Of a stretch of 64,000 nt of DNA, positions 14,670-54,905 are shown one piece after another; the first letter of the stretch is position 1; each line of letters starts with the position of its first letter. The translations under genes were made by a program, and so were the position numbers. The stretch comes from Polytrichum commune (Eukaryota; Streptophyta; Polytrichopsida; Polytrichales; Polytrichaceae), in contig OX485804.1 of the NCBI GenBank assembly GCA_950295325.1, positions 17,608,001 to 17,672,000 of the forward strand, read 5' to 3'. The notes under the pieces are model-generated. The model saw nothing but the letters and a program-made list of their open reading frames with translations, was not told the DNA's origin and did no database searches.

Positions 14670-15479
14670 TAGTTGGTTTTACGAATTCATTTTGAAAAAG
14701 GGAAGAAAAAGAGAGAGGGTCGGACATGTTTCAAAGTTTTTGGGATGTTGTAACTTCATCCGAGGACGGCGAGTAGAGTCATCATACACTTTGTGCACAT
14801 GTCATCATACACAAGTGCAACAAACAATGAAGATTCCACATAGTAGGTAATAGATATGTGTTGTGGCCTTTTAAATTCCAAATGACATTTTTCGTCAATG
14901 TGAGTGTGGTGATCTCACTCGTTCCACTACGGTATGCAGGTGTTATTCGGTTCATTTTTCTTGTTCCCTATCTTCTATCGATCATAACTACAATTTTAGA
15001 ATTGTGTTGCATTAGCAAACTTATGATGAAGCATCAGCAAATATCGGATTGGAAATTAGGCCTCCTATGATTTGGTTATGGTCCCATTGGAAGTGCATGT
15101 TTGTAGATTTCTAAGTTGAATACATACCATGTCCTCCTAATTGTGTTCACTATTGAGTGTGGAGTAGTTATTGAAAGTTTGAAACATAGTAATCCAGTCT
15201 CTTACGAACATGTGTCTTTATGATATTTATTCTTTGATCCTCATCAAACCACACACCAATCAAATACAAATGTCCAATCAAGGAAAGTAATTGAATAACA
15301 CCTACGTACCTTAGCCCCTAAGTTCCCAAGCAACCAATTTATGGTTGATGGATGATTTCTTCCCTACATAAACCCCACCTTACTTTTTCATCCACAATCA
15401 AAATAATTATAATCATTGAGGCATCATGAATATCTACACATAGACACATGAGCCATGCAATTTGTAGATGAGTAGAATG
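14670..15479. repeat. Two oppositely oriented pieces of module M
   Basis: From about 14930 (ACGGTATGCAGGTGTTATTC) to 15070 lies a plus-oriented copy matching 1965-2092. From about 15120 to 15310 lies a minus-oriented copy matching 2690-2880 and 63057-63250. The close head-to-head arrangement suggests the two are the ends of one larger inverted unit. No coding frame is convincing. Confidence 0.5.
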
Positions 15480-15827
15480 CTCGGGGGGGGGGGGGGGTAG
15501 TCATTGGTTGGAGTAGCAATACACGTGCGAACAAATGATAGGGTATTTTAAAAACATGGGAGCAAAAAATTATAATTGGGCTTAAGAGTAATGTAGGGTA
15601 TCAAAAATGGCACTGGACATCTTTAAAGTACTATAGGGTATGGAATAATAGGTAATTTGGAATCATAAGTAATGCAAGCCATTTTTCTATTAACCCAAAG
15701 TAGAAATTTACATAATGATAGCATGTGAAAAAAAGAAGAGAATTGAAAGTAATACCCCCCTATAAAATAGTGGTTGTTCGCACCTATATCCTTAACTTTT
15801 TAACACACTGCCCCCCCCCCCCCCGAG
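15480..15827 (+). mobile_element. CTCGGGG-family TIR element, 348 bp, 8-bp TSD
   Basis: Starts CTCGGGGG and ends CCCCCGAG, each extended by a homopolymer run of about 14-15 bases. It is flanked by perfect 8-bp direct repeats GTAGAATG at 15472-15479 and 15828-15835. Further in, GTGCGAACAA near the left end is matched by GTTCGCAC near the right. The interior words TAGGGTATTTTAAAA and ATTATAATT also occur in the copies at 18276, 20653 and 40693. Non-coding. The 8-bp duplication fits hAT, P or Merlin-type transposases, but the terminal bases do not fit any of these consensus ends well. Confidence 0.85.
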
Positions 15828-15835
15828 GTAGAATG

Positions 15836-17429
15836 TGTAAAAATATGTCAAAGTGGGAAGTGGTCATGTTTTTGTTGTGTTGGGAGCTCATGTGAGGGTG
15901 TTGACTCCAAATCGATGTTTGCCACTTCAATGCAAACTTTGCGTGAACATCAAAGATGCTTATTTTGGTAAAAGTGTTTTTTTTTTTTATGTTCATGTAG
16001 AAATGGCATGTGTGCTCACATCAACCGTTCAGTCTAACATTTGGACACTCTCAAATCATTATATTCGTTAATTTGGGACTTTTTTGGCATTTTGAGACAG
16101 TTACAAATATAAGAACATGGATAAAATCACACATATATTGGAGAATGTTGTAAGATGCAAATACTTTGAAGCGGGTGCTCATATCAAGATCCCAATTAAG
16201 AAATCATATCAAGATGGTTTAGGTAGGACGACCCAAACATTAGACCATATTGTTGTGGTCCATATATTAATTTGAGACAAGAGAAAGTCTCAAATTAATG
16301 AATATAGTGATAAATGTTTATGGAAATCTTTGCGTATATGTATGTTTAGAAGTGTGGGACAATTTACATACTCCAAATGCAAGGTAGCTAGCTTATTGTG
16401 ATTTGCACATTTTGGTATGAGAATTTGTGAAGATGCTCATTTATCAAGTTGTTCCCATCTAGTGGATCACCCATGCCTTCCACTCATTTTCCAAGTGAAT
16501 TGGTCAAAGGCGTTTTTGGGAGGATAAAACATGCATGTTCTTGTGCATCACTTCCTTCAATTGTTATGATCTAAAACTACCAAGAGTTATATGTGCCCAT
16601 TTTTTCCCTCATTTTAGCTCATCTATCATGTTTCGAAATCCTATGAACAGATCCACTTTAACCTCAAGACTTGTCCATAAAAATTTCACAACCAACCTTG
16701 AGTGAAATGCACTCAAAACAACCCCTTGGCTTGGGAAGTCAAGGGTTAAATCTGAGACTTGATGGGCCAGGTTGGTCCATGGAGTGTTGTGAATAGATAA
16801 TTTGTATTTCCAAGCACGTCGTCTCACTATAAAATTAGACTGCATTCCGTTGGCATGGAATCCTGGAAAAGAGGAAAACAATATGTAGATATCTCAATAT
16901 TGTAACCGTTAGTAGTAATTTGAGGATTAATTGTTATAAGTTTGTCATGCTTCAAGTGCTACCAAAGCATTCTTTCATGTCCTTTTTCTATCCCAATTAA
17001 GGTATATGGGTCCTAAATAATTACTTTTCCGACTAGCCCATTATTCCTAGGATAGGAAACACACAACACTAAGATAGGAAAATAAAAAACAATGGATGGC
17101 CATTATTAGAAGCACTAAAGTAAGGTAGAATGATTCTTATGTGGATCCAAAAAGGTTAATTGTAAAGGTGGTGGTCCAAAAGGATGCAGTGATAGGTGGG
17201 ATGCAATGATTGGCCGGATAGGTGTTGTTTCACATCACTTGCAATCACTTTTGGGTGTCATTGAGTTCACTATTTGACTCACTTGCCACTTTAGGAAAAT
17301 GTGACTAATTATTTACAAGGAATAAAATTATGAAAGAACTTAGATTCCTCTTCATTCCCTCTACTCCGTCTTTGAAAAATATTGCACAAATTTCAAGCCG
17401 CTCTTTTGGCCGAATCAAATTATTTTCAT
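15836..17429. repeat. Dispersed AT-rich family copy and unassigned DNA
   Basis: About 16020-16440 is a diverged copy of the family at 13.6-14.0 kb. It contains a perfect hairpin, ATTAATTTGAGAC with GTCTCAAATTAAT, at about 16267-16301. From 16441 to 17429 no gene or element is recognised. Confidence 0.4.
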
Positions 17430-17935
17430 TGTTTTCCATATATGTACCTTACAAGCATCATGTGGTCAAGTCACTAGCAGATCAACCAATTTGGAAGATG
17501 AAAATAGGACATACAACTAGTCCATTTTTAGAATATTATGTAGTATATTGCAGTGGGACAAAACCAATGGTTGCATCCACCCACAATGCAATGTTGATTG
17601 AATAAGGTTGCATTCAATTAAAATAGTTTTGTGCATTAAATATATCCAAGCAAAACACCCCACCAAGCAATTCACCTACGTCTACTTGGGCTACATCTAC
17701 AAGGATCATGTGGTCAAGTCACTGGCAAATCGACCAATTTTGAAGAAAGAGGTGGTGCATATCACTATTCTATTTTTAGATTATTATATAGTATATTGCA
17801 ATTGGACGGAACCAATGGTTGCGCCCAACCACAATGTAATATTATCTTATATAAGTTTGCATACAGTCAAAAAAGCTTCTTGCATTAAAACTGCCCAAAC
17901 AAAAATCCCACCAATCAATATAATTATTCAAGGCA
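17430..17935 (+). repeat. Two ~248-bp tandem units with a shared reading frame
   Basis: The blocks ATCATGTGGTCAAGTCACTR (17457 and 17705), TAGTATATTGCARTKGGAC and ACCAATGGTTGCRYCCAMCC recur in order with a period of about 248 bp. Both units read similarly in protein, HHVVKSLADQPIWKMK against DHVVKSLANRPILKKE and later VVYCSGTKPMVA against IVYCNWTEPMVA. Protein-level similarity between diverged copies suggests an old coding source, but I recognise no family. Confidence 0.7.
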
Positions 17936-18275
17936 TTACAAAGTATACATAAGGGATTTGTATTATTTTTCTCTAGTGTATGCATTTAGAAAGGCTATTA
18001 AGAATTTTGAAATAAAGGTAAATTTGACTTGGAATATAGACTTAATTACATTCAATCACACTTAATTAGTTTGAATGCGAATGAATACTTGTGAAAGTAG
18101 ACGGCATTACCTAAAATATTATAAAATATACATGCTAAATCTACACACTAATTTAAGTGTCATCTTTTGAATAACAAAGACAATTTCAAATGGTAAGTCA
18201 CAAAAATTATAAGCTCAATGTTAATGAGGATTTTGTATTTTTTTGACATCCAAGTTAATTACGTGCTTCATTGAT
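17936..18275. other. Unassigned AT-rich DNA
   Basis: No coding frame, terminal repeat or tandem structure is seen. Confidence 0.4.
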
Positions 18276-18910
18276 GGTTTCACTGGCGAAAATCATAGAA
18301 ACAACGTGCAACAAATAATAAGGTCTAATATATTCATTATAGATAAATTTTGTAAAAATGTACATATAATATAGGGGGTTTTAAAATAGTGAAACATGTT
18401 TACATGTAAAATACCATCACATATAATGGCCTCTTTTATCTAGTCAGTACATGTAAAATAGCGTGGAAACAATTACTAGGATTAGTGGGTCTAAGGTAGG
18501 GTTTGTGGCAGTGGATGGAAAGAGGTAATTTTCTGTTGAAAAGTCTTGGATGGATGACTTCACAAGCTGGTTGCGTGGCTGGTTGGCTTGAACGTTATTG
18601 AACCAATGTATCCAATGTGGAGTTAATGTCCTCTACCTACATGCCGGGAGGGGAAATTTCAGCGCGTTGTTTGAATTGCAATGTTCCTTCCAATTTTCTT
18701 TGGCAATATGAGTAAAATAAGGTGTTTTTAAATGATTCCCCAAAAAAATTGTAATTACTAAAAGGGTGTATTAAAATACAAGCATTTACCTTTATTTTGA
18801 AAAATACCATACCTTATAATCTTTTATGCAAGGTACATAGCCCCCCGATAAATAACTACTAAGCGCACGTGTATGCAGTAATATAAGAGGGAGTGACCCC
18901 CCCCTGGTGA
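18276..18910 (+). mobile_element. CTCGGGG-family element, eroded left end
   Basis: Aligns along its whole length with 20653-21277 and, inverted, with 40693-41318. Shared words are AACAACGTGCAA, AATATATTCATT, AAACATGYTTACATGTAAAA, GTTGGCTTGAA, AGCGCGTTGTTTGAA and ATATAAGAGGGAGTGACC. The left tip that should read CTTGGGGAGGT has been lost or altered. GGTTTCACT appears at both edges and may be the target duplication or a coincidence. Non-coding. Confidence 0.7.
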
Positions 18911-20411
18911 GGTTTCACTTCTAGAATGAAATCCCAATCAATTGGTTATTTACTAATTGGAAGTGCACATATATATAGAATTTCAGACCTTGCAAGTGAA
19001 GTGCATTCAATATGGGATTTGTAGTCAAGTGGTCTTCAAGAATGCAAGGATAATATTTATTTTCAAAGTTGGGCGAGGCAGGTAGCAGTTTTTAGTCGGG
19101 TTCATAAATTTCCCTGGAGGGCTGCCCCAACCCAGATATGACATCCCCAAAAGTTCGTGCGGGGGTATTTATTGTCCGCCGTGAAATCATTGGGTGGTGA
19201 CTTGGGACTTCCCCACTCTCCAAGCTAGTGTGGCTACCCTAGTGAAGGCATTTGGCCTCCTTAGCTAGCCGTATTTGTAAGGGTGTACCCAAACTCAATT
19301 AAGGGTTGTAAAGGTAAGGAAATAAAGAAAGAAGAATTCCGGTCTCAACTAAGGGGCCGCAATGAATAGAGTGTTTGTACATAGAACAACCTTGGTCACG
19401 TCCTAAAGGGCATTGATTTTAGATATAAAACTATTTAACCATTTCCAGGGAGTAGACACTACATTAGTAGCTAGTAACAAGAAATAAGAGCTAGTAACCT
19501 ATAATTGTGAGTTGTTGGGTGTTTATTCCAAAGAGTAGTATTGTTGAGAGGGTAGGATATACGGTGGGTTATGGGGTGCGTGAACACCATGTCGATAAGA
19601 TCCATGTTGGTTGAGAATGAATGATTAGTTCCATATTATTTGGTTTGGGTTTGATTCATGTTGAAGTCATTTGAGTGCATGTGAATGAAAGTGACATGTG
19701 GTTGTCATGTGGGTTCTGGGAGGGAATGTAGTTATTAGCCAACGGCCTATCCTTAAGCATTGCTAATTGAGCTAGAAGAGTGGTGTGTACCACTATTCAA
19801 GTAATGTAGTTTTTGGTGTGGGTTGTGTCATTAGTGGTTTTTTTACTTTAGGTTGTCTAAGGTGGGTCTGGGAACTTGTGGTATCAAATTGTGAGGTTGT
19901 TTGGATATTGTTGGGAACGCAATGCTATGAGTTATAGGACATTCATAGGTTGCAATTTGTGTATTAGGTCTATCCTATTAAAAACATGATCTAGAATGAT
20001 GAAAGTTAGAAGGAACCAACCAAGATTGGGCATGGTAAGGTTGTAACCATGGGACAAGATAGGTCTAAGGAGACATGTTCATGTAGTGTAGTGGTCATGG
20101 TTGTGGCTCCAAAAGTGAATGAGGGAGGCATGGCGGTTTTGACTAGACTTGAGGAGTACAATCTACCCTCTATAAATGTTAACCCTCGGGAGTGGATCAA
20201 AGTTAACATCTATAGAGGTGTTAACAATTAACAATTAACAATTTACTTTTTTGAGCAATATACAAATCTTAACATTTATAAATATAAGCAATTGTGAAGA
20301 GTCCTTGTGAGAGAATACCATTCATAAAATTGCAAACCCAATCAAAACTTTATTCAATATCAAGTTTACAAATCACGGGTGAAGTATGAATCAATGGTTC
20401 TTTGGTGAGAT
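18911..20411. other. Unassigned DNA with one long palindrome
   Basis: No gene is recognised. CTCTATAAATGTTAAC at 20168-20183 pairs with GTTAACATCTATAGAG at 20202-20217, a 16-bp stem with one mismatch. It is followed by three TTAACAA units at 20219-20240. Confidence 0.4.
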
Positions 20412-21647
20412 TCATCTGCATGCACAACTTGCAAACATTTCGCGGTGGGTGGATCTAACTAGACTCAAGGAGTGAATAGGTAGAAATGATGAGAAGCCTC
20501 TTGTCACGATCCTAGGCACGATAGTAACAAGGAATTGTATAGGGGGCATGCTACAACACCGGGCCATGTGAAACCAAAAAATTAAAGATAGATCATAAAC
20601 CGTCCATTGGTCCAACCAGGAGGTACATGGTTGGGAATCGACAAGGTCATGGCTTGGGGAGGTCACTAGCAAAAATTGTAGAAATAACGTGCAATAAAAA
20701 ATAAGGTCCCATATATTCATTGTGGATAAATTTTGCAAATAACGTACATAAAATATAGGGTTTTTTAAAATAATGAAACATGCTTACATGTAAAATACCA
20801 TCACATTTAATGATCTCTTTTATCTAGTTAGTACATAGAAAATAACATGGAAACAATTACTAAGGGTGGCAGGTCTAAGGTAGGGTTTGTGCTAGTCGAT
20901 GAAAAGAGGTAATTCTTTGTTGAAAAACCTTGGATGGATGACTTCGCAAGCTGGTTGGCTTGAATGTTATTAAACCAACGTTTCCAATGTGGAGTTAATG
21001 TTCTCTACCTACGTGTCGGGAGGGAAAATTTGAGCGCGTTGTTTGAACTGCAATGTTCTTTCCAATTTTCTTTGGCAATATAAGTAAAATAGGGTATTTT
21101 AAAATGATTCCCACAATAATTATAATTATTGATAAGGTGTATTAAAATACAAGCATTTACCTTTATTTTGAAAAATGCCATACCTTATATTCTATTCTGC
21201 AAGGTAAATAGCCCCCTGATAAATAGGTCATGAGCCCACGTGCATCCATTAATATAAGAGGGAGTGACCTCCCTGAGGGTCGTGGCTAGACATGAGCCTG
21301 ATTTGGGGGTGAGCGCCATGCACAAAGTGAGAACAAGGCCCAAGATTGACCCACGCACATGAAAAGCAAAGGATGGTGAGAAATCGGCTTAACAAGGATC
21401 CTGAGGCTAGTGAATAATAACGGTAGTTTGTAGGGAGTTGGGGGCATGTCCCTAGGACCGAGGGTTGAGTGACTCCTAAAAGCCCGTTGGGCAAGGGGTC
21501 TAGGGTCTCCATTACCGGGGCATGTACCATGCGCTTTGAATTCATGTTTGGAGGAATGAAGGCTAACGTTTTTGTGGCCATTGTTTGTGCTAAGTTGGCG
21601 ATATTGTGAATACATTGTTTCCCCCTAGGTAGACCCCATTGATACAT
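20412..21647 (-). pseudogene. 200-codon unknown reading frame split by a transposon
   Basis: On the minus strand a frame opens at an ATG at 21645-21647 (MYQWGLPRGKQ). It runs to 21278, where the 625-bp element at 20653-21277 interrupts it. Beyond the element the same frame resumes at 20644 (LVDSQPCTSWLDQW) and ends at a TGA at 20412. Taking out the element and one copy of the 8-bp duplication leaves 603 bases, 201 codons including the stop, in one uninterrupted frame. The joint reads CAC GAC CTT in register on both sides. The deduced protein has several Cys and His residues but no motif I can assign. GC content is higher than in the neighbouring DNA. An alternative is a chance antisense frame; a second frame of 109 codons overlaps the first half. 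The TE interruption itself is well supported. Confidence 0.4.
20653..21277 (+). mobile_element. CTCGGGG-family TIR element, 625 bp
   Basis: The left end CTTGGGGAGGTCACT and the reverse complement of the right end CTCAGGGAGGTCACT form a 15-bp inverted repeat with two differences. The flanks are GGTCATGG (20645-20652) and GGTCGTGG (21278-21285), an 8-bp duplication with one change. It is a full-length relative of 18276-18910 and of the inverted copy at 40693-41318. Non-coding. It sits inside the minus-strand reading frame 20412-21647. Confidence 0.85.
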
Positions 21648-24499: not shown

Positions 24500-25471
24500 T
24501 CAAACAAAAACAACCCAAGGAACTAGATCAAAAGGAAGGCTGAGCTAGGGTCTATAAGGGTTAATGTCACATTGGATAAAGGAATACAATAACAATCTAG
24601 GCCTTTTATTCCCCCATTCTTTCTTTATTAAGCTTAACTCACACTTGTATGGTTCATTTTACTTCTTCCATCGAGTGTGATTTCTATCCTAGGTGCCTGT
24701 GGACTTCTATCACTTTGACTCCATCCTCTAATTCAGTTGTGAAGCTCAAAAGCTTGGCAAGTTCTCAATGGTTATTTGTCAAGACAATGTCCGGGGTAAT
24801 GTCTTTTGAGTGACCACATAGTCTTCAAAATGCCATGAATTGAACTTGAATTGAGTTCTTTTAATCAAATTACAACCATCATATTTTTCTTCAAATAACC
24901 ATAGTCACCACCTTCATCTTCAAGTATTTGGCGACTCGTCTCAAACAATCATCCACATGTCATTACTAAATTAATGCATTGACAACTAGGCTAGATTCTT
25001 TAATTAAGCCTTTAGTATGTTATGATCCGAAAATGACTTGCATTTGGTAAAGTCTTACTCCAATAAGGTAAAATTTCCCTCCTTTGGATGTATTGTCTTC
25101 GCAACCTCTAGCATGCTTCTAATCCTTTCAGTGTCATGAACATAGACAACCAACCTTCCCCTCTATAAAACACTATTACTATAGTCACTTAATATCACGG
25201 TGTGACCAAGGTAATTGTCATGGCAATGGCCTACCAGACACTCCTCCTTTCTAGACGTTACCCATCTCATGTGTCTGCATCTTTCTCTCTCATGCCTAGT
25301 TTCAGCAACTTGGCCTTGCTCCGTCCTCTCTCGGCTATTGCCCTTCAAGATCTTTCTGACCCACTCATTGGTTTATTGTTTTCTTACATGGCTATTGATC
25401 GTCGATTGCTACCCTCTTGATTACTCTCTTAAAACTATTGCTCTTATCTTTCCTCACTTGGCTAATTGCCT

Positions 25472-26256
25472 CTCGGGGGGTGCACTGTACTAAACATGTA
25501 CGAGTATACGTGAGTGCACAGGAGGGGTATTGATTTGGACCTTGCCGTATTACGTATACATATGGTATACATGTTATAATTTATAGTTACGTACATATAT
25601 GGAAGGCCTTTAAAAAGTATACAATAATTGTACTTGTATGGTACTGTTATTATACTACATATCATAAGTTTTCATATTGGATGAAATTAGGATTAACTAG
25701 GATTAATGATTTTTGTTAGCAACCTTATAGGGTAGTATGAACCATGTACAAGGTGTCAAGGTAATATCGGGGAAAGAGGCAGTATTAGGGTTTTGAAATG
25801 ATTCGTTCAGCTCAAAGTAACAAGGAGATTGGTTTATGTTGGTATCAAAAAGGGGCTAACAACAAGTGGACATATGATCTTACTGATCATTTGATGGTAG
25901 ACTTAGAGACAATAATTGCATTGGCTACAATGACATATATTGGTGAATCAAATGTTTATGAGGTACATCCGGGAGATGAAAAAGTTTTCAACGACTTTGC
26001 TGATGAAAGCTAGGATATTTTGTTATACATATTATAGGGGTTGATTATTGTTCAAAAGTATATTTGTATACTTATGTTAATGACTATATATGAATGGATG
26101 TTTTTTTGCGTATACATATTGTCACTTGTATATTTATTGTTGCAATTGTATGTGTATTACTTCATTTCACAAAAAATAACTTGTATATAGGGGGTTTTTA
26201 GAGTATGCAGTGAACGCACGTGATTCTAGGTTTTAATGAAAGGTGCACCCCCCGAG
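25472..26256 (+). mobile_element. CTCGGGG-family TIR element, 785 bp, carries small ORF
   Basis: A perfect 14-bp terminal inverted repeat CTCGGGGGGTGCAC. It is flanked by perfect 8-bp direct repeats AATTGCCT at 25464-25471 and 26257-26264. The six-base palindrome GTATAC occurs four times near the left end (25504, 25554, 25565, 25617) and twice near the right (26066, 26110), like the subterminal binding sites of many cut-and-paste transposons. It holds one small open frame (25798-26013) shared with the longer relative at 53356-54637, so it looks like an internally deleted derivative. Confidence 0.9.
25798..26013 (+). CDS. Small protein remnant carried by CTCGGGG-family element
   Basis: A 71-codon open frame beginning MIRSAQSNKEIGLCWYQKG and ending at a TAG. 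Its core EIGLCWYQK, then WTYDLTDHLMVDLETI, then VYEVHPGDEK matches, residue by residue, a frame in the related element near 54183-54370. There the flanks contain several short frameshifts. Two tryptophans followed by a MVDLE segment are faintly like a WWE domain, but length and spacing do not allow that call. It could be the tail of the family's transposase or a captured host exon. It lies 3-prime of centre in the element with no visible promoter. Confidence 0.4.
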   Translation: MIRSAQSNKEIGLCWYQKGANNKWTYDLTDHLMVDLETIIALATMTYIGESNVYEVHPGDEKVFNDFADES

Positions 26257-27130
26257 AATTGCCTACACTTACCTTTCTCGGGTTAAGTGTCTTATTCTAA
26301 GCTTATTGCCTCTCATGCTTCTTGCTCACATAACTCTTATCTTGCTTTCTTTTTTACATGCTTTTCATGTCCATCAAGTTCCTTCTTGGAATAGATGTTT
26401 TGCCACTCTTTAGCCTCTCCCAAACTATTGCTTCACACATTTCCTCATAATGATACAACCTTCCTCGCTAGTTCATACTTCAAACGTTTCCCTCTTTAAG
26501 TTATTTCTAAGACTTTTATAGATTTCAACCAATAGTCAAAGTAAGTTTCTCTCTCTCTTAACTCTGGCTCGCTTAACCTTCACCAAACTCAATTATTGTT
26601 ACAACACAAGATTACTTGCCCCTGTTAGCATCAACATTAACAATCTTTACTTTCACATATCACAACTTTGTACACAACCAAACAACATCATGACTTGCTC
26701 TCTCTCTTTCAAAAATAACAAAGACAATTGCTCATACAACTTCATGTCTTTACTTATCAAAGTTTCTAAGACATTCTTGAATTCGAATCATTCAACTCTT
26801 ATGTCTATTGCTAATCCTTACAAGCCTCACGCTTTGGGATTTGACTAAGGCCTCACTCAACCATTGAGTCTCATACCTTCTAAGACTATTGCTAAAGCTA
26901 ATGTTGAGACTACGTTGGATTTCTACAAAATGATAATAGCCTCCTTCTCCACTGCTTGGCCTCCGCCTTATTGAGGGGAAGGATGAGGTGGTTACGGCAA
27001 CCGTCTTGGAGCGGCAATAACCCCCTGAAGCCACTCATGATGAACTTCTAATTGTCAATGGCATGCTAACTCTTACTAATTCTGAAATTTAGCCTACATG
27101 CCAGACTATAGCCAAAAAATTGAGCTTACA

Positions 27131-29153: not shown

Positions 29154-29161
29154 TAACACTA

Positions 29162-29781: not shown

Positions 29782-29802
29782 GGGCTAGTTTACACTATGG
29801 AC

Positions 29803-29872: not shown

Positions 29873-30251
29873 TTCTTAAAAATTTAGTTTTGAAAGCCTT
29901 GGGCCCCTCACTAGGTGTGAGGCCAAACCGCCCACCCTTAAGCGTCCTAGTCCGGGTGAGGGAATGGGTATCACATTCGTTTCACATAGCTCCCTCTTAC
30001 CAATTAGTAAAACTCCATTTCCATTTCCATCAATTCTTGCACACTGATTTATTCCATAGTGAGAGTACAAGCATTGAAAAATGTTCTTTCCTATCTATCC
30101 TCTTCTCCCTACACTATTTCACACACCAACCTTCACTCACTACCAAAAGCTCACCCACCTAGACCACCATCTAATTATGGAGCAAAATCCCCCTTAGTAC
30201 CTTTGCCCTTGGCCCTACCCGGCCCCTCATTAATCTCAGCATTAATCCCAG

Positions 30252-30567
30252 CTTAGTCCCGGCAGTCCGAGGTTGCTCCAGAATAATACCACTTAGTCCA
30301 CCAGTCTGAGGTTGCTCCAGAATAATACCGCTTAGTCCAACAGTCCGAGGTTGCTACAGAGTAATCCCAGCTTAGTCCAACAGTCTGAGGTTGCTACAGA
30401 GTAATCCCAGCTTAGTCCAATAGTCCGAGGTTGCTCCAGAATAATACCGCTTAGTCCAACAGTCCAAGGTTGCTCCAGAATAATACCGCTTAGTCCAGCA
30501 GTCCGAGGTTGCTCCAAAATAATACCCCTTAGTCCAGCAGTCCGAGGTTGCTCCAAAATAATCCAGC
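30252..30567 (+). repeat. Eight 39-40-bp minisatellite units
   Basis: Units begin CTTAGTCC at 30252, 30292, 30331, 30371, 30411, 30450, 30489 and 30528 and share AGTCCGAGGTTGCTCCAGAA. Because 39 is a multiple of three, the minus strand reads as a repeated 13-residue peptide (EQPRTAGLSGIIL). That frame is broken by the 40-bp units and is not considered a gene. Confidence 0.95.
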
Positions 30568-30591
30568 CGTCCCAGCAGTCTCTAACTAATT

Positions 30592-30706
30592 CCTACTAAG
30601 TCCCCTACCCAATTTTCATTAATTCTCCTAAGTCCCCTACCTAATTTCATCAATTCTACTAAGTCCTCTACCTAATTTCATCAATTCTACTAAGTCACCT
30701 ACCTAA
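30592..30706 (+). repeat. ~31-bp minisatellite
   Basis: Four diverged copies of a unit like CTACTAAGTCCYCTACCTAA plus TTTCATCAATT. It directly follows the 39-bp array and is followed by a purine-rich GAGAGGA stretch to about 30805. Confidence 0.85.

Positions 30707-31348: not shown

Positions 31349-31391
<43 letters not shown>
31349..31391 (+). repeat. (AAC)n microsatellite
   Basis: About fourteen AAC units. Confidence 0.95.
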
Positions 31392-31392
<1 letters not shown>

Positions 31393-31762: not shown

Positions 31763-31797
31763 TAGTAGTGAACTATGTGAAAAAGAATCGCAATCGT

Positions 31798-39490: not shown

Positions 39491-39884
39491 AACACTATCC
39501 ATTCAAGACCCATCTATCTTACTTTGTCCATGGCAATTGAGAATACTTATGCACCATGAGAGGCTTCAAATGTTCTTGATGTAAGTTTCATACTCATCTT
39601 TTTTCGTTCAGTACAAAAACAACTGCTTTTTGGGAGAAATGCACCTCGTGGCATCACCACATTGGTTTGGAACTTGTAGGATCAAGTAACACTAACCATT
39701 CAAGACCCATCTATCTTACTTTGTACATGGCAATTGAGAATACTTATGCACCATGAGAGGCTTCAAATGTTCTTGATGTAAGTTTCACACTCATCTTTTT
39801 TCGTTCAGTACAAAAACAACTGCTTTTTGGGAGAAATGCACCTCGTGGCATCACCACATTGGTTTGGAACTTGTAGGATCAAGT
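39491..39884 (+). repeat. Recent 197-bp tandem duplication
   Basis: Two directly adjacent units, 39491-39687 and 39688-39884, differ at only about three positions (one near the start, TCCATGG against TACATGG, and CATACT against CACACT). All other tandem repeats in the window are far more diverged, so this one is young or homogenised. No coding frame. Confidence 0.95.
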
Positions 39885-40692
39885 GTGAAAATTGCATCTC
39901 CAATTTGAAAATGCCAACACTACACACACCCACACACGAAAAGCTTCTGCTTTGGAACTCATAATAGTTTGGTTGTGTGTTGACTTATATAAGGTCTTGA
40001 TTGTCCCACAAGTGGTTGCAATGCTTTTGAAGTGAATGAACAAGGTTATTTGAGAAGAATTGTCCAAACGTAATTTACAAGTGATGTGGTTCATGAGGGA
40101 TGGTCTTAAGCCACCATACATAGATGCTTAGTAATATTTTAGTTTTGACAGCAAAACTTGCAAATCAATCAATCACATAAAGTGAAAGTGTGTTGAATGG
40201 TTACTTTTTGACCCATTTTTGTTCTTTTCCATAATTCTCAACTAGTTTATCAAGGTTAGGATTTTTGATGGAACCGCAAATGTGGTATGAGACTTTTGAA
40301 ATTAGCAACAATCTTTGAAATTTTCTAGATTGTTGTTACGAGTTTTCAAAGCATAATTGTCAAAGTTATGAAACGATTGGGTAGACTTCCCCAATGATGT
40401 TGACTATTGAACTTAGAATATTGAACAAATTTTGAACACACAACCCAATTGCTTTTAAACATATGTTTGTTTAGTGTCCGTTATATAATCCTCACCTATC
40501 CACACATCACTCAAATACATGTATCCGAATAATATAAGTAACCGAGTAAGGCACATCTACCTTAGATGAATCCATTATTAAGATTGCATTTGCATGGCAC
40601 CTATCACAAGTACATTCAAAACATAAAGTAATTTTTCAAACATTAAAATCAATGATACTATCTATACTAGACATGAGTTGGCACACCATGGT
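39885..40692. other. Unassigned DNA and a copy of module M
   Basis: About 40390-40570 is a minus-oriented module M copy (CAATGATGTTGACTATTGAA, AACATATGTTTG, CACATCTACCTTAG). The remainder is unassigned. Confidence 0.4.
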
Positions 40693-41318
40693 CTTGGGGA
40701 GGTCACTCCCTCTTATATTAATGCATACAAGTGAGCTCAGGACCTATTTATCGGGGGGTTATTTACCTTGTAGCAAAGATTATAAGGTATGGTATTTTGT
40801 CAAAATAAAGGTAAATGCTTGTTTTTAATACACCTTTTCAATAATTATAATTTTTTGGGGAATCATTTTAAAAATACCCTATTTTACTTATATAGCCAAA
40901 GAAAATTGGAAAGAACATTGCAATTCAAACAACGTGCTGAAATTTTCCCTCCCGGCACGTAGGTAGAGAACATTAACTCCACACTAGATACGTTGGTTCA
41001 ATAACGTTCAAGCCAGCTAGCATGCAAAGTCATTCATCCAAACTTTTCAACATAAAATTACCTCTTTTCATCCACTAGCACAGACCCTACCCTAGACATG
41101 CCAACCCTAGTAATTGTTTTCATGTTATTTTACATGTACTGACTAAATAAAAAAGGCCATTATATGTGATGGTGTTTTACATGTAAGCATGTTTCATTGT
41201 TTTAAAAACCCCTATATCATATGTACATTTTTTTACAAATTTTATCTACAATGAATATATTAGACCTTTTTTTTTATCGCACATCATTTCTACGATTTTC
41301 ACCAGTAACCTCCCCGTG
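40693..41318 (-). mobile_element. CTCGGGG-family TIR element, 626 bp, inverted copy
   Basis: Left end CTTGGGGAGGTCACT; reverse complement of the right end CACGGGGAGGTTACT. The flanks ACCATGGT (40685-40692) and ACTATGGT (41319-41326) form an 8-bp duplication with one change. It is the reverse-oriented relative of 18276-18910 and 20653-21277, alignable throughout. Non-coding. Confidence 0.85.
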
Positions 41319-41326
41319 ACTATGGT

Positions 41327-42520: not shown

Positions 42521-42622
42521 CACTACTAGGAAAGGTGGGTTTACATGACACGTCAATGTAACACGAAGTGTCTACTTTGTGTTAGATTGGTGTGTCATGT
42601 AGACCGACCTTTTCTATTAGTG
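42521..42622 (+). mobile_element. 102-bp CACTA-type hairpin MITE
   Basis: Starts CACTACTAGGAAAGG and ends CCTTTTCTATTAGTG, with TGG on both sides (42518-42520 and 42623-42625), the 3-bp target duplication of CACTA elements. The two halves pair almost to the centre (GGGTTTACATGACACG against TGTGTCATGTAGACC). The transcript would be a single long hairpin of the kind that can feed small-RNA pathways. Confidence 0.9.
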
Positions 42623-42625
42623 TGG

Positions 42626-44819: not shown

Positions 44820-44826
44820 GAATTCA

Positions 44827-45003: not shown

Positions 45004-45387
45004 AGTATGCTTGTATGTGATATATTATCACTCCACAATATCAACCTTTGTAATGTCACTCCTTCTCTAATACACTGAAACCCTAGGGAAAGGTTGTTCT
45101 CAGTTCAAATCTCACTCCTTATAGTCACATTTTCCTCCTTTATATCATGGTTTTTGACATGAATAATAACCACCAAAGTTGTCAACCCATGCCCTCGCAT
45201 TGCACCACATGTCAAGAAATTCCTCTTGCAAGTTCTCCAATGTCATGCTCCTCACGTTCTTCATGTTCTTACTTGAAGTTTCGGTATGCTCAAACAAATA
45301 AATTCAATGGACCACACAAATCGATTTTGTATGAGTCTATTGAGTGTGAGCTCTCTCTCTCTCTCTCTCTCTCTCTCATGACATGGT
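45004..45387. other. Unassigned DNA ending in a TC microsatellite
   Basis: The plus strand is open at 45147-45377 without a recognisable product. A CT microsatellite occupies 45351-45377, just before the next element. Confidence 0.4.
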
Positions 45388-46148
45388 CTCGGGGCGATCA
45401 CACCCCCTAACGTTTTGTAACCACATGCGATAATGAGGTATTTAATGTGGGGATATTTATGCACCTCTCAATTTTTTTCCCGCCTTATTTGTAGATATAA
45501 AGCTACTTTGACGTATTTTTTAGCACCCTATATTTATTTGTAATTATTTAGAGAGGCTAATTTTTGGCACCATTTTTTTTTGTATAAATCAAGTACCAAA
45601 TAGTGGGCGGAATACTATAGCATTGCAAAATCAACTATGTGAGCGACAAACATTCCAGACCATCCATCTTGTCATTCAATTGGTTTTTATTAGTTATACC
45701 AATCCTAAACCATTCAAAGTACCGTTAAAGGGTTATCAATAGACGTGGAGATTACAAAATATACAAGCTAACATAAACAAGTTGTAAACATGGATAGGAC
45801 AAACAAGAATTACAATCAATTGTGACAAGACATAGAATTTTGCACAACTACCTACTCCAAAAAAAAATGCATTCAAATACAAGAAAGCTAAATACAAAAG
45901 CCATAACTATTGTATTGATCCTACTACACACTTTTAGGCGGATCCAATATCTATAACCCTATTTTTTTTATTGATTATTGAAATGGAGGAATTATTCACC
46001 AATCTATTTTACATATAATCATGTAGGGGACATATTTCCAATGCTATATTAGATCTAACGAATTTATAATTTTTACCCTCAACAAATTAAATTGATCCTA
46101 TTTTTTTTCTCACGTGGTTTCTAAAATCCCGAAAGTCACCTCCCCGAG
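45388..46148 (+). mobile_element. CTCGGGG-family TIR element, 761 bp, perfect 8-bp TSD
   Basis: Starts CTCGGGGCGATCAC; the right end in reverse complement is CTCGGGGAGGTGAC. Flanked by perfect GACATGGT repeats at 45380-45387 and 46149-46156. The interior is AT-rich, diverged from the other members and non-coding. Confidence 0.9.
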
Positions 46149-47680
46149 GACATGGTTTGTAAAATTGTTGATGGCAATGATCACCCTAGTGGTGTGATGT
46201 ACCTCACAATGCGGTGATGGTAAGAATGGCTTCAAGATCTGTTCTCCGTGATTTGGTAGTTGCAAAGATGGGGTTAGGGTTAGGATGGGAATCTTAAGTT
46301 GCGGCAAACCTCAAATTTGGATGTGCAATTTGGTTTTTGTGGCTTGAAATTCTAGTATGAAGTTCGTTGGCATAGCTTTGTGAGCAACATTGGCAAATGA
46401 TTGTAGATCTTGTGACCACCATAGATGGAGTTTGCCACATTTTCATTTATTTATCTCTAGAGTATGATTGTGCATTGCATCATACATGAGTGGAAAGTTT
46501 TTTTTAATTTTTTAATTTTTTTAATTTTTTTTCTTCTTAACTCAACTTTGGGATTTTTTGTGTTCTAGGTGCAATATTTGATTATGACAAGGATTCTTGA
46601 AATCTTAAAGCACAAGTAAACTTGTATCTACTATGTGAACATTCATCCCTTGGTTATGACCAATGTAGATTTTTGATCTTCGTTGATGAAATTTGTAAAT
46701 GAAAAATCGCTTACGAACTTCTCCCTCACCTTTGTCTTTGTATCAATTATTGCTAGTGGGCCATGTTATCTCCAACTTTTCCATGTCAAAAACTTTAGGC
46801 CTTATCTCTCAAGTATGATCCTACACTAGTGACAAGTCTTTCTGTTTGAGCTCGTGTTCGGAATTTTTGTATTCTAGGTCTACTTCTAGAGGAGTGGTGG
46901 CATGTGGTTGGGATATGAAGCTTGAAATGTGAAACCATTAGGAATTTTGTATCTACCATGTGCACTCATCTTAACAGAGCAAGTTAGTTTGCAGGGTTTA
47001 AGGTTTTGGATTCTTGCAATGGATTGATTTATGTTTTGAGGGTGGAGGAGCAACATTGAAGCATATGTGCAAGGTACAAATAGATTGTTACTTGCTTGAC
47101 ATCCATGTTGCACCGGGTCCGGGTCCGGGTAAGGGTAAGGGTGTGGATGGTGTTATTCGTGACAAAGAATACATCTTCTTGTAGGTATTGGTTCACTTCT
47201 AGATTTCAAGGAGATAGGGTGATTATCAAGCACCCAATAATGGATGGCATCCTTGTCAAGCTCTCCATCTTTTTCTTTCCAATTTCTACAAGCATAACAT
47301 TGACAAGATATGTATGTAAAGACAATTCCTTCCATGGGGCTTAGAAGAAGTATTTTCATATAAGCATTGATGCAGAAGAGAACTTTTGATGTGGAGATAA
47401 CCATACTTCTATCCATTGTAACAACCACATCATCATATGTGGCTTCAATTTCCATTGCCGACTCTGGAACTATGTGTGCCATGTGTTTACCCACACATTC
47501 TAGCTACACTTTCACCAAAGCTTGAGGATTCATGTATTATGCCCCTCCCTGCTCAATAGCACCTACATTCGAAGTGGAAGTAGGGAACTTGGCCTTGAAC
47601 TCCCCTCCATTATTTAGAAGCTCCACCTTGCACCATTTTGTTTTGTAACCTCTAGATTAAACATATCCTAGAAAGCTTGA
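46149..47680 (-). pseudogene. Decayed minus-strand coding sequence, family unknown
   Basis: The minus strand from about 47680 to 47153 reads in one frame, interrupted only by three or four stops. Successive stretches are YKTKWCKVELLNNGGEFKAK, FPTSTSNVGAIEQGG, YMNPQALVKV, GKHMAHIVPESAMEIEATYD, DVVVTMDRSMVISTSK and RNWKEKDGELDKDAIHYWVL, ending at a TAA at 47153. The last 113 codons are intact from an ATG. Further on, around 47113-46886, a frame reads HGRYKIPNGFTFQAS. Near 46240-46160 another reads TRVIIAINNFTNHVLG, where the element at 45388-46148 has inserted. These may be pieces of one gene or of neighbours. I do not recognise the protein. A GGGTCCGGGTCC/GGGTAA minisatellite (47115-47140) lies between the pieces. 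Confidence 0.4.
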
Positions 47681-48712: not shown

Positions 48713-48880
48713 TTAGCATAACTTTGCTCAGCGATGTGGGTCCTCATAATATAATAATTGGATGTTAGGAGTTCAACTGTAATATGAGTATCTCTATGTA
48801 ACTTTTTGAGCATCCAATTGTTAAATATGAGGGCCCACGGAACAAGGAAAAAACATTGAATAATGTTATGAGAGTCTATC
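48713..48880 (+). mobile_element. Short foldback MITE, copy 1
   Basis: GTGGGTCCTCATAATATAAT and ATTGGATGTTAGGAG on the left are matched in inverse by GCATCCAATTGTTAAATATG and AGGGCCCAC on the right. Outer arms around CATAACTTTGCTCA and TGAATAATGTTATG also pair. The same design occurs at 54906-55062. Confidence 0.65.
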
Positions 48881-49525: not shown

Positions 49526-50180
49526 CAGTTACCTCCCGCTTAAGTACACAACTTGAACATGTGTAGTTTGTGTGTACTTAGCTGGTAGGTGCGTACTTTA
49601 GGATTTAGGGTTTCCCAAATCGTTACCGCTTGTGTTTCGCTATAGCCGGTAGGTGTGTACTTTAGGGTTTAAGGTTTCCCAAATCGCTTGTGTTTCGCTA
49701 CAATGTCGAAGAAACCAAACGGAAAGCGTCTCAATGAGCATGAACGTTGCGAAATCATCTTGAAGCTTAGCAGAACGAATACTCCGAGTAAAAGGGCTCT
49801 AGCCCGAGAGTACATCGTTAGTGAAGGCGATGTTAACACTCAAGAACTGAATGTCGGTTTAGAAAACGGAGTTATATTCTAGGGTTTTGACTCTCTTTAT
49901 GAGCAGGTTCTTGACATCGAGGATTAGCTGCTCTGCCTTGAAGTTCAATCAGAAGCAGAGGAAACATTTGATGGCCTTAAGAAATCGTTTGAATCATTTC
50001 AGAGCAAGATCCGAGCGGTCGACCTCAAAGCCAAACGCAAAAAACTTCAAAACTTACGCTAAATGACGATTCACGACATGTTCAACTAATAAATCTTAAA
50101 CCCTAATTTTTTTGCCAAAAAATGCGTACTTAACCGGGATGCGTACTTAAACGGGTGCGTACTTAAGCGGGAGGTTACTG
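49526..50180 (+). mobile_element. Pogo/Tigger-like DNA transposon, internally deleted, 655 bp
   Basis: The terminal inverted repeats CAGTTACCTCCCGCTTAAGT and (reverse complement of right end) CAGTAACCTCCCGCTTAAGT differ at one base. TA flanks both sides (49524-49525 and 50181-50182). A CAGT start with TA targets is characteristic of the pogo branch of Tc1/mariner. The right subterminal region has three units of TGCGTACTTAARCGGG. The left has an ~80-bp direct duplication ending GTTTCCCAAATCG...TGTTTCGCTA. Inside is a transposase remnant (next entry). The DDE catalytic core is missing. Confidence 0.9.
49703..50062 (+). pseudogene. Pogo-like transposase: N-terminal HTH and C-terminal tail only
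   Basis: From the ATG at 49703 the protein begins MSKKPNGKRLNEHERCEIIL and continues KLSRTNTPSKRALAREYIVS. This is the pattern of the N-terminal CENP-B/Psq-type helix-turn-helix that pogo and Tigger transposases use to bind their ends. The frame goes off the expected path within about 60 residues. Near 49876-50062 a short tail is still readable (YDSLYEQVLDIED, then EETFDGLKKSFESFQSKIRA and KAKRKKLQNLR), coiled-coil like. Between the two, the roughly 300 residues of DDE catalytic domain normal for the family are absent. This copy could have moved only with a helper transposase. Confidence 0.75.
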
Positions 50181-50182
50181 TA

Positions 50183-51203
50183 CTGATTTTGATGTCCTCA
50201 ATATCACATTGGCATACATAACAGAAAGAATGGTGTTTCGCATCACTCTTCCTATGACACTTTTCTTTGTGGTGATAAGTCCATGATCTCTTTGTGAACA
50301 TAAAGTCATCTACTTGGCTGCTACAAATCCGTGGTCGATGGCCACATTCATGTACTACAAGCATACAAGTTTGGAGACAAATAACTTGTGTTGATGAGAA
50401 ATTATTCTATGTCATTAGAAATATGTAAATCTATCACAAGAGAATGTTTAGGGTACAAACACAGGAAAGTGGATTGCTTTTGATTCATGCAAAGGTTTAA
50501 GTGAAATTGATTCGAAACTATACACTAACTTTGATTTTTATTTCAAAGGGTCTTACATTTGAAAACCATATTGACTTACAAAGCCAAGCAATATATGTTA
50601 ACAAAGACCGGGGGAAAATGAGAATAAAAGTAAGAATAAAAATAAACGTATTTTAGAAGACAGTGCAAGTAGGTGATATTGAACAAGTAATTTTTATTTT
50701 CTAGATAGAGTAAAATTACATAAAATTGATGATGTTTTGCATACGTTCTAATGATAGCACCCTCAAGTTTATATTGAATTCAAGTACACTGTAAGTATGT
50801 TGGAATTCATAATTGAAAATTCCAAGCTCAAAATATTAAAGGTCATGAAATTTACATGTAAACTAAATTTAGCCATTTTATTTTGAGCACTACTTTTAGT
50901 GATAATTTTTTAAAGATCTCAGCTTGATATTCTATGTTTAAGTACTTCACACCAAAAATTAAAAGCACCCATGAAAAAAAAATCCAATCTAGACAACACT
51001 CTTCTATTGTTTTTAGACGTTTGACCAAACAAGTTATGACTTTTTATGTAGCGAGGGAAGTTTTTTCTTTTGGGTCCACTTGATCATGCTTGAAATAATT
51101 AACATGTTTTCTTATTCTCATTGAGGCATGACGATTGCGTAGAAGTCATATGCCGGTGATGTCCGGTGAGTATATTATAGCCAACGGCATGCACCCCATA
51201 CCC

Positions 51204-51244
<41 letters not shown>

Positions 51245-52579
51245 CTTAGAAGCCTTATTTAGCTCCAAAAGACAATACTCCAACATCAATATGCTTATAA
51301 GCCCACGTGACCACTGCACTTTGTGGACAAGCTTGTTTATTTCGTAGTGGATCCATAGTGTATTGCCGAATGCACAAAAGTGGTGGTGGGCCAAGCAATT
51401 GCTAAAACTATTAAGGGGGGCAGCACCAAAAAGAGTAAAAAAAAACCTTCTCTTAAAAAGTAAAATAAACAAAAATCAGTCTAGACTCCTTGTGCACACT
51501 TTGTAATGAGTAAAAAATTGTACTTCCCTGGATGGAACAAAAGATCGAATAATAAATTCACTCAATTTATTGAGCCGAAGCATTTCTTAATAGCCTGGAG
51601 AAAACTTCTCTCGTACTTCTAGTCACCAACTTGATTGAAGTACAACAAAATTGTTGCCGTTTGTTGGAAGTATTGTGTCGAGGGTGTAAAATAGTGTGGA
51701 TTATTCTAAACCATCAAAATGGATTTAATTCATTCATGTGGCCTATACATTTTTGTACTTTTTAGTTGTATTATCCTCCCACAAGTAATACATAATTTGT
51801 GTGTGTGTGTGTGTTTTTTGAGGGCTAGACTTCATCTATACCACCCTCTTGTTGGTCTGCACACAAGTATATGATTCAAAGCCAACATAAAAATTGAGTA
51901 CTATCAAGGTTCTTGAAGAAACTAAATTCCTGCATCATTTGGGGTTTGCTTGTAGGCGTGCAAAGTTTCTTGTCATTGAATTGAACCATACATAATAGAA
52001 ATATCTTTTAATTTGACTAGAATTTTGAGCAAGAGTTGGTTGTTTTGCATATAGTATCCATGTTTGGTAACATATCAGTGCATGCTCGGAGTTGCCGTGG
52101 AGGATTGCACGAAGAACATTCTGTATGAAATCATTGGGGGGCCAAACTCATTTTAGCACCTCTTGGCATAGGTACCAACTTGGTTCACAATGATTGTTCC
52201 AACTTCCTACATCACTGCCTTGCTTTAACAAAAATTTAATATTAATATTATTAATAATCCTAGAGGATCCAAGAAACTAAATTTTTAATCAAAAGCCATG
52301 TCAAGATAAATTTCTTAACCATCTCGAGTAGCTTTCTTGTCAAAGAGTGTGTGTTAACCTTGAAGACCATTGTCCATGACCATCGTCCATCATGCTCGTC
52401 TATAACCTCACAATGACATTGGACACCCAACACCACACCTACAGTGCCATGTGGCAAGAGTAAATCCATAGATATGGGACTCTACCTCCCAAGTTACCCA
52501 CATGTCAATCTCATCTAAAACATGGCCACAACACTTGCTTATTACAATAGGCATATGGGCCTAGCACATGTGCTTTAAA
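50183..52579. other. Unassigned AT-rich DNA with microsatellites
   Basis: A GA repeat at 51209-51243 and a TG repeat at 51799-51814. No element ends or coding frames of substance. Confidence 0.4.
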
Positions 52580-53769
52580 ATAGCCACTTTGAGTATGGCT
52601 ATAGGTGCCACACAGATTGCACATGCCGCAACTCCCGGGGTTTTAGGCCTTCAAGCAACAACAAAACTAGCTTGGGCCTCAATTTCTACTGAGGTAGGCC
52701 TTGGCAAGTAAGTCATCCTTGTGTTTTCTCTACATGGTAACAAAATAATTTGCAAAAAGACATTTTTACTTCCATAATAACAACATTTGTGATAGTTTCA
52801 AGAATACTATATCGCATGAGACAAACAAATAACATTTTATCACAACCACTAAGTAAGCCATGGCGATGTCCACCATGGAACAACAACTTGGCTAAGGTTG
52901 TGGGCACCTCATGTGCCAAGGCCTATAGCCCATGATCCAAGATAAGGCAAATTCACCTTGGTACCTTGCCTTGTGCTAGACATTTGACCACACCAATGTG
53001 AAGTTGTATATGAGTTGACCCCTCCACTTCATGACAATATATTTCACAAGTTGGCACAAATCATCTAGCATATTGGCCCGACCGCTTTTGGACCAACACT
53101 CCAGGGTATTGAAACCCACTTGGAATTGTCCACCCATGTCCGCCTTGCATGACCAAATGGCAATTTTAAAATTGTATCAAAAAGAAATTGGATGTGAGCC
53201 TTATGCAAACCACGTACAAATTTCCCAATCACGACCGGGATCATCCATCCCGGATATGAGTATGCATGCTCTTGAAGGGGATCAATGAATGCAACAAGAA
53301 GCCCACCATGAACATGGTGGCTTTGTCAAAATTGTTGAGCATCATGTCAACATGCCCCGCTGGGTGCACTACAATATCATGTATGAAACCACATGAGTGA
53401 ACAAAAGGAGCATTAATTACAAGATAAGCTAACTAAATACATAGCCCAATTTTAATGTGATAAGAATTGTAAATTTACACATAGGGCCAACCCTTATAAG
53501 ATGTCGATAAGAAGTAACTCTCATGCCACCTCATTGGGGGGCGGATTATATATATATATAATCCATGATTACCAATCCATAGATCTAGTTTGAAAACAAC
53601 ACAAAACTTCCCACTATGCACTTGCCCATTCCCGACCCACCCGTTAAAATTTAGTCCAAAATGATGCAATTGGTCCAAGTTCAAATTGTCCGTCAAAGGG
53701 TGCTGACATTCACGAAGACCCATGTACTAATCCATTTTGCAATTTGAATTAAGTCATGTCTTGGATAGT

Positions 53770-54033
53770 ATGGTTGATGAGCGTGAAGAAATTCCTTTGG
53801 AACATTATGTAGTGCCATTTGTTGTTGTTGATGGTTCCAAGATCTTTAAAAGTACCTTAGTTAGTCAATTAAATGGCAACCCCGCATTGTCCAAGGATAG
53901 GTTGACTAGAATTTCAGTCCGGTTGTTATATACCAAGCATGAAAAGAAATTATTAAGAGTTGGTGTTAATGATTTCAATCTCAAATTGGGATGTGATTAT
54001 GATGTGGCTTTTGTCACTGAGGCAACAATTTAA
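53770..54033 (+). CDS. 87-residue remnant protein, unknown family
   Basis: Open from an ATG at 53770 (MVDEREEIPLEHYVVPFVVV) to a TAA at 54031. The segment DGSKIFKSTLVSQLNGNPAL-SKDRLTRI is strongly protein-like, followed by KKLLRVGVNDFNLKLGCDYD. It belongs to the 1282-bp element and precedes the WYQK-type remnant. The shorter relative at 25472-26256 lacks this part. It may be part of the family's transposase or a captured exon. It is followed by a run of A, the likely site of a frameshift. Confidence 0.4.
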   Translation: MVDEREEIPLEHYVVPFVVVDGSKIFKSTLVSQLNGNPALSKDRLTRISVRLLYTKHEKKLLRVGVNDFNLKLGCDYDVAFVTEATI

Positions 54034-54099
54034 TTTTTTATTTAAAAAAAAAAAACCAAGTATATGGAAAGCATTGAACACTAAAACTTGGTATTTAGG

Positions 54100-54380
54100 A
54101 AGGGTTTATAGAATTGTAGAAAATTTGCTAATAGGTGGGTTGAATATAAAGAACCAAGTGATTTGTTGGAGCAACCATCTCTATGGAAATTGGATTGTGT
54201 TGGTACCAAAAAGATCATGGATCACTATGGACTTATGACTTCACATACCATATTATGGTAGACTTAGAAACTATTATTGTATTAGCTACGGTAAATTTTG
54301 TAATAGGAAAAAACATGTATGAGTTACATCCTATAGATGAAAAATGTTTGATGATTTTATCAATAATAAATAAGTACTTT
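54100..54380 (+). pseudogene. Frameshifted second copy of the WYQK-type remnant
   Basis: In one frame it reads EIGLCWYQKDHGSLWTYDF, MVDLETIIVLATVNF and NMYELHPIDEK, matching the intact frame at 25798-26013. Near 54340 a single-base shift is needed to continue into FDDFINNK before a stop. Upstream, near 54121-54180, KFANRWVEYKEPSDLLEQPS reads in a different frame, so at least two frameshifts have occurred. Conservation of protein rather than DNA between the two elements shows that this was once a selected coding sequence. Confidence 0.5.
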
Positions 54381-54905
54381 TAAAGTGAAAAAAAAATCAG
54401 GCCTATTTTCTAGACCATGTTTTTCATTATATATGCATGTTAGGTTTTTTCTTTTTTGATTTACTTTGAACATGCATACATATGTTAGGCTTTCTTGATA
54501 GATAGATAAATAGATAGATAGATAGATAGATAGACATCACTTTCTTTAATGAAAGGAAAATTGTATATAAAGGTGTCGATTTGGAGGTGATGCACGCACA
54601 TTATGCATGACTTTTAACACTAAGTGCACTCCTCAGGGGACATGCCACCGGCACGGCTAGCAATGCCAAGTAATCTAAAACATCCAAATTGGGGATTCAT
54701 CATCGTGATAAATGAAACCACTCACCCAATTCTTGGCTCGATAACGAACCATGACCTAGGAGGTTGTATCCAAGCGATCATCCATGGTTCAAGATTGTGG
54801 ACACGTCTCTCCCAATTTAACCTCCTCCACCTAAGGTTCTAAGGCCTTAAAGTGACACCTTCCTTTTGGTGACATCTATTTTATTTTTTAATGTCAACAA
54901 GTTTG

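Follow-up and report, generated by a model that had tools for sequence, protein, structure and literature searches.

P elements carry 8-bp target-site duplications, and THAP domains have been described as restricted to animals (PMC7776569), while the active site of the Drosophila P transposase is formed by D230, D303, the D(2)H motif at 339 and E531 (PMC8230255). In the Kyakuja, Dileera and Zisupton (KDZ) group, 8-bp duplications are made by Zisupton and by one Dileera family, and the two Kyakuja families described in the same work have CA..TG ends, no terminal inverted repeats (TIRs) and 7-bp duplications (PMC12730594). The 2015 Repbase list includes P, hAT, Merlin, MuDR, Zisupton and Novosib (PMC4455052), and the TIR superfamilies of land plants in Table 1 of a 2022 review are Tc1-Mariner, hAT, Sola, MuDR-Foldback, PIF-Harbinger and CACTA, with no P in that table (PMC9033089). 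The miniature inverted-repeat transposable elements (MITEs) of 207 plant genomes were primarily assigned to five superfamilies in another survey (PMC12550479). Here, a group of transposable elements with CTCGGGG-type ends is described from a 64,000-nucleotide stretch of the genome of the bryophyte Polytrichum commune (GCA_950295325.1, contig OX485804.1; G000:C2:17608001-17672000 in the searches), which is called the window below; the genome searched comprised 408 Mb in 64 contigs. One small contig contains rbcL and accD, whose sequences have a bryophyte appearance, and nearly all of the bases lie in seven large contigs, as might be expected of a moss with a chromosome number of seven. Elements of this kind, with 8-bp duplications, risk being filed as hAT on duplication length alone.

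The seven elements of the window are best explained as MITE-like elements, not autonomous themselves, which belong to a group of cut-and-paste DNA transposons with a putative transposase of about 1,500 codons and a P-related active site, a reading to which a probability of roughly 85% may be given; that the group is real, genome-wide and recently mobile is nearly certain. Exact CTCGGGG occurs eight times in the window against 1.34 expected, and none of 100 shuffles reached eight. With one mismatch allowed the tip is unremarkable alone (61 against 50.5 expected, with 61 reached in 12 of 100 shuffles), and the case for the window elements rests on paired ends. When two inward-facing tips with at most one mismatch each were required to lie less than 2 kb apart and to be flanked by an 8-bp duplication with at most one mismatch, five pairs were found, against a mean of 0.05 over 20 mononucleotide shuffles, which rules out chance pairing of the tips. 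The inverted tips extend over 14 bp at the window elements, and among the seven elements three duplications are perfect, two have one mismatch and one has two, the remaining element being decayed (Table 1). The ends on seven elements and the three perfect and two one-mismatch duplications reported in the first-pass annotation of the window were thus borne out; the copy that it placed at 18276 is also present, with its start nearer 18270, decayed tips and no duplication.

The same ends are widespread in the genome. The tip pattern CTCGGGGRGGTSAC is matched exactly at 304 places, as against 6 for its reversed control, and the pattern CTCGGGGGGTGCAC at 721, as against 7. The first 100 places listed for CTCGGGGGGTGCAC all lie on C1; of the neighbours separated there by less than 12 kb, 27 pairs are convergent, 2 divergent and 3 parallel, and the convergent pairs enclose lengths of 271 bp (2 pairs), 702-720 bp (9), 784-787 bp (5) and 1167-1752 bp (11). 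For the 785-bp type, represented in the window by the element at 25472, the best 40 of 1640 candidates were scored, and these are near-complete and 98-100% identical; a perfect-match score was obtained for three copies on C2 (the window), C3 and C7, so the 25472 copy occurs in identical form on two other chromosomes. The 625-bp group is older, because its genome copies, judged from the best 40 of 1394 candidates scored, are only 86-88% identical, apart from the window copy itself.

The length of the duplication was counted in 30 loci of the 785-bp type, with L028 (nested) and L022 (altered tip) set aside. In the remaining 28 copies, which have both ends, the 8-bp duplication is perfect in 20, has one mismatch in 5 and two mismatches in 1, and is absent in 2; duplication lengths of 6, 7, 9, 10 and 11 bp were tried on these copies and none fits. 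The 8 bp first seen in the window thus holds genome-wide. Of the first eight loci examined for the other tip pattern, three have a duplication with at most one mismatch, two have one with two mismatches, and the other three show no pair within 3 kb. A natural empty site is provided by L028, in which one 785-bp copy is nested in another: GACTATAT stands on both flanks of the insert and represents bases 611-618 of the host copy, which, minus the insert and one duplicate, is identical to the window copy at 771 of 785 positions. Here the duplicated bases are known from the host copy, and they number exactly 8.

Complete elements bearing long open reading frames (ORFs) are present in the genome. 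With the 99-codon stretch in the 53356 element as the query, ORFs as long as 1497 codons were recovered (best 150 of 582 candidates scored), and in the ORF search (best 31 of 1902 candidates scored) eight matches spanning nearly the whole query were stop-free at roughly 49-100% identity. L077 is a complete element of 5802 bp whose two ends share 26 identical bases; it is flanked by a perfect TCTAGATT duplication and contains 1549 open codons, and a copy on C6 measures 8315 bp, has 1497 open codons and is flanked by ACTAGTGT and ACTAGGGT, which differ by one mismatch. Two further copies, on C5 (50059283-50067708) and C4 (41298156-41306578), are 8426 and 8423 bp long, as calculated by hand from their coordinates, and have perfect duplications (GTGATTTC and GCAATGGT, respectively) and ORFs of 1518 codons that are stop-free according to the ORF search. 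These two copies are near-identical at separate sites: three stretches sampled on the 5' side, of 1201, 601 and 1055 bp, show 99.6%, 99.8% and 99.7% identity, respectively, the final 302 bp show 97.0%, and the similarity ends at the tips. A full-length copy between CTCGGGG-type ends, which the first-pass annotation had proposed to look for, was found in four cases (L077, C6, C5 and C4), the long ORF being its putative transposase gene.

Other copies are less complete. A C3 copy of 6994 bp with a perfect ATTTCAAC duplication is weaker evidence, because its tips diverge, a second tip lies 16 bp inside and the frame is broken. End stretches were examined in six further ORF-bearing copies, two of which were later completed, and the four others were left out of the full-length count, since only their left tip was seen. 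L069 has only the right tip and L072 neither. Downstream of the ORF, L072 also contains, at 5727-6299 and 6447-6800, an open frame of a repeated peptide (NSSKALRVHI and similar), apparently a tandem repeat. In L070 and L071 a second, shorter open frame follows the long ORF, and the two products are 30% identical over 77 residues (BLASTP 5e-11). On C5, two stop-free 1518-codon ORFs (50060032-50064534 and 50081750-50086252) lie 22 kb apart.

Two of the window elements, 15480 and 25472, are linked by sequence to ORF-bearing copies, and a third, 53356, contains an ORF relic. At its 3' end the 15480 element, a further copy of which (97.1%) is found in L065, matches the C5 autonomous copy (86.8% over 167 bp) and the C4 copy (84.3% over 166 bp), and the left ends resemble each other by eye; judged from these matches, the 15480 element appears to derive from the autonomous lineage of the C5 and C4 copies. 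The 3' end of an ORF-bearing copy at 55.01 Mb on C4, including its last ~60 codons, matches bases 353-785 of the 785-bp element at 97.7% identity. L062, L064 and L067 each have a longer piece of the ORF between sequences corresponding to the first ~355 and the last ~433 bp of the 785-bp element, a layout that gives the pattern of internal deletion. The 785-bp type has the character of a MITE in that it is an internal-deletion derivative of an ORF-bearing element, and the group shares with plant MITEs the small size, the many copies, the inverted ends, the target duplications and the origin from larger elements. It differs from them in that its putative transposase matches by profile none of the five superfamilies named in the survey of 207 genomes (PMC12550479). 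The inverted terminal repeats at both ends and the constant 8-bp duplication are those of a TIR cut-and-paste transposon. The 45388 element is 83.5% identical to L003 and is also similar to L001, L002, L004 and L008.

The interiors of the seven window elements fall into five sequence groups. The elements at 18270, 20653 and 40693 are mutually 85-88% identical over ~620 bp, and 25472 and 53356 have 169 bp in common at 69%, while 15480 and 45388 have no internal match to the other window copies except for a 40-bp match of 15480 to 40693. A single homogeneous family is therefore rejected, and the seven-member family of the first-pass annotation holds for the ends and not for the interiors. A second end box, ACGTGMG, counted when at least 6 of its 7 bases match, is found ~36 bp inside all 14 window ends and all six of the ends examined in three autonomous elements. 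It lies at +34 to +44, and at +35 to +37 in 15 of the 20 ends, against an average of 1.6 of 20 in shuffled ends. It is mainly this two-part signal, the CTCGGGG tip and the ACGTGMG box, that ties the five groups together; the copies might have proved unrelated beyond the tips, and this is partly the case for the five interiors, yet the box is common to all the window ends. Exact CTCGGGG at 6956 and 7287 was considered as a mark of further elements and rejected, as both are outward-facing and neither the box nor a partner is visible nearby. The length of the G run at the tips varies, both between the two ends of the 15480 element (15480-15497 and 15811-15827) and between the C5 and C4 autonomous copies (L093 and L094).

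The movement of these elements probably proceeds as follows. The ORF product would bind both parts of each end, excise the element and join it to target DNA with an 8-bp stagger, and repair of the stagger would leave the 8-bp duplications. Internal deletion would have given rise to the 785-bp type, which may now be mobilised in trans by the enzyme of autonomous elements. The active site of this enzyme would be of the DDE/RNase-H type, related to that of the P superfamily while far from it. As stop-free, near-identical copies and matching small derivatives exist, the mechanism is directly testable.

The enzymatic function of the long ORF is suggested by stretches that are invariant in five copies (AEDET, SDGD.RRR, GLHDQD..HNGKKL, DRQNW and GSD.CE.FFSK). 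In the L077 ORF the invariant core covers approximately residues 725-1170. The first D is separated from the second by 119 residues, the next 47 residues lead to a D(2)H motif, and the distance from D(2)H to E is 188 or 195 residues; zinc-finger-like motifs at the N-terminus of the ~1,500-residue protein were seen by eye only. When 17-residue blocks around D230, D303 and E531 of the P transposase were compared with the new protein, each scored top of 1454 positions at the invariant D, D and E, and the reverse comparison agrees, the invariant D, D and E blocks having P D230, D303 and E531 as their best matches. With the catalytic letter fixed and the rest of each block shuffled, all three blocks fell on the invariant residues in 40 of 60,000 trials and did so in order in 2 of 60,000, a figure which flatters the result, as the 17-residue width was chosen after a run with longer blocks. 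The enzyme probably works like a P-type DDE transposase, as far as these blocks indicate, and is not classed as a P element; the group may represent either a distant offshoot of P or a superfamily of its own.

General searches with the protein gave little. The L077 ORF had no Pfam match up to E = 10, the L070 ORF had a single weak match to Thioredoxin_4 and the L060 ORF one to an AT hook, both below the cut-off, and a Pfam scan of four members returned the same two weak matches only. NCBIfam gave nothing or one match far below the cut-off, and in PDB sequences the only matches were weak ones, at E 0.1 or worse, to proteins that are unrelated. With respect to these three libraries, the first-pass annotation's suspicion of an undescribed lineage holds. 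None of 115 pattern matches in viral contigs and none of 68 in prokaryotic contigs was confirmed as a relative. No published description of the group was found in the literature covered, Repbase Reports and most subscription journals lying outside it.

Several observations weigh against the reading preferred here. No profile library names the ~1,500-codon ORF a transposase, and with longer blocks (19-21 residues) the P block of D303, then 21 residues long, ranks 8 of 1449 and that of D339 67 of 1451, with E531 first. The P D(2)H block at the 17-residue width ranks 47 of 1454, and in the reverse comparison it pairs best with G355 instead of D339. The four-block total is matched by 13 of 1000 shuffled sets and 44 of 1000 random-window sets. 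Sequence similarity over the whole core makes no case for P, since hhalign against P gives E 0.42 and the gapped core alignment is equalled by 22 of 60 shuffles. Among the loci compared, the 45388 element and the 625-bp group have no direct link to an ORF-bearing copy, and the duplication is missing from 2 of the 28 copies of the 785-bp type. The ACGTGMG box was defined post hoc, after inspection of the ends, and its constant position is therefore the stronger part of that evidence.

The position of the group among known superfamilies can be weighed from the same data. It might be a separate eukaryotic superfamily of cut-and-paste transposons in a bryophyte, at most a sister of P, with a ~1,500-residue enzyme, two-part ends, 8-bp duplications, several lineages and very recent movement; this proposal is a tentative one, with odds a little short of even. 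That the group is simply a much-diverged branch within the P superfamily is a possible reading about which there is more doubt. The elements share with the Drosophila P element and THAP9 the 8-bp duplications (PMC7776569), the internal-deletion derivatives, end signals beyond the tip and the D, D and E blocks as reciprocal best matches, and the 188-195 residues from D(2)H to E are close to the 192 calculated from the residue numbers of Drosophila P (PMC8230255). Against this, the distance between the two D residues is 119 instead of 73, the intact ORFs have no Pfam match except the weak one to Thioredoxin_4, and no THAP match is found in the protein. The P superfamily is further characterised by an insertion domain ahead of the E and by a dependence of transposition on GTP. 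Overall similarity to P transposases or P profiles was not detected in the profile, PDB-sequence and core-alignment comparisons, the core alignment being not significant, and the ~1,500-codon ORF and CTCGGGG-type tips set the new elements apart. P-element ends bear CA, which is missing from these tips, and for this the first-pass annotation had set P aside. That step is not upheld: P stays a candidate because the putative catalytic blocks are closest to it, while Hermes fits only at E. The same annotation had also named hAT and Merlin, the second of which gave nothing in the general profile searches. If the P-like catalytic blocks without a profile match are what they seem, either P-type transposition reaches land plants or a new superfamily is at hand, and a separate superfamily would add to the six TIR superfamilies of land plants.

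A diverged hAT lineage with unusual ends would account for the 8-bp duplications in a plant host, where hAT elements are common, and the E block of Hermes falls reciprocally on the same invariant E; it is nevertheless very improbable, as of the catalytic Hermes residues D180, D248 and E572 only E572 lands on an invariant residue, the blocks of the two D residues missing the invariant D residues in both directions. Besides, the ORFs match no hAT family in Pfam, and hAT ends carry an A at the second base, which these tips do not have. It is unlikely, to a lesser degree, that another known superfamily (KDZ/Zisupton, Novosib, MULE or Merlin) was missed by the profiles. Novosib, MULE and Merlin were compared through general Pfam profiles only, and the 8-bp duplications of Zisupton and of one Dileera family agree with those found here, but the ORFs have no Pfam match, and the CA..TG ends, the 7-bp duplications and the want of TIRs in the described Kyakuja families differ from the new elements (PMC12730594). 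In the general Pfam scans of the ORFs no similarity to KDZ transposases was seen. A KDZ model is included in Pfam. Finally, the long ORF could be a passenger gene and the true transposase another protein, a suggestion which accords with the silence of the libraries and with the shorter downstream frame of two lineages, whose products are weakly similar to each other. There is very little to expect from it, because the long ORF is present in every complete element examined, is stop-free in the eight near-full-length copies and carries invariant D, D and E residues that correspond to a known active site. The remains of the putative transposase in the window are listed with the elements in Table 1.

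Table 1. Elements of the CTCGGGG-ended group and putative transposase remains in the window (window coordinates)
Feature	Position	Strand	Flanking duplication	Remarks
348-bp non-autonomous element	15480..15827	+	perfect, GTAGAATG at 15472-15479 and 15828-15835	
Decayed copy of the 625-bp group	18270..18908	+	none	boundaries approximate, tips decayed
625-bp non-autonomous element	20653..21277	+	GGTCATGG/GGTCGTGG (one mismatch) at 20645-20652 and 21278-21285	
785-bp non-autonomous element	25472..26256	+	perfect, AATTGCCT at 25464-25471 and 26257-26264	
71-codon ORF, truncated C-terminal end of putative transposase	25798..26013	+		near-identical to the ORF end of L060/L069
626-bp copy of the 625-bp group	40693..41318	-	ACCATGGT/ACTATGGT (one mismatch) at 40685-40692 and 41319-41326	opposite orientation
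761-bp non-autonomous element	45388..46148	.	perfect, GACATGGT at 45380-45387 and 46149-46156	
1282-bp decayed element with putative transposase remains	53356..54637	+	CAACATGC/GGACATGC, two mismatches (6 of 8 bases match)	
99-codon relic of putative transposase	53734..54030	+		query that led to the long ORFs
Further C-terminal remains of putative transposase	54185..54349	+		69% to the 25472 element; positions 830-994 of the 53356 element

The window also contains other repeats. At 42522-42622 an element of 101 bp, flanked by TGG on either side and with inverted ends similar to CACTACTAGGAAA, resembles a miniature CACTA element. A G+C-rich inverted repeat lies at 63493-63829, with 53-bp arms that are 89% complementary and 231 bp between them. 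A tandem duplication of 197 bp at 98% identity occupies 39491-39884, and a tandem array with a spacing of 39 bp is located at 30225-30604.

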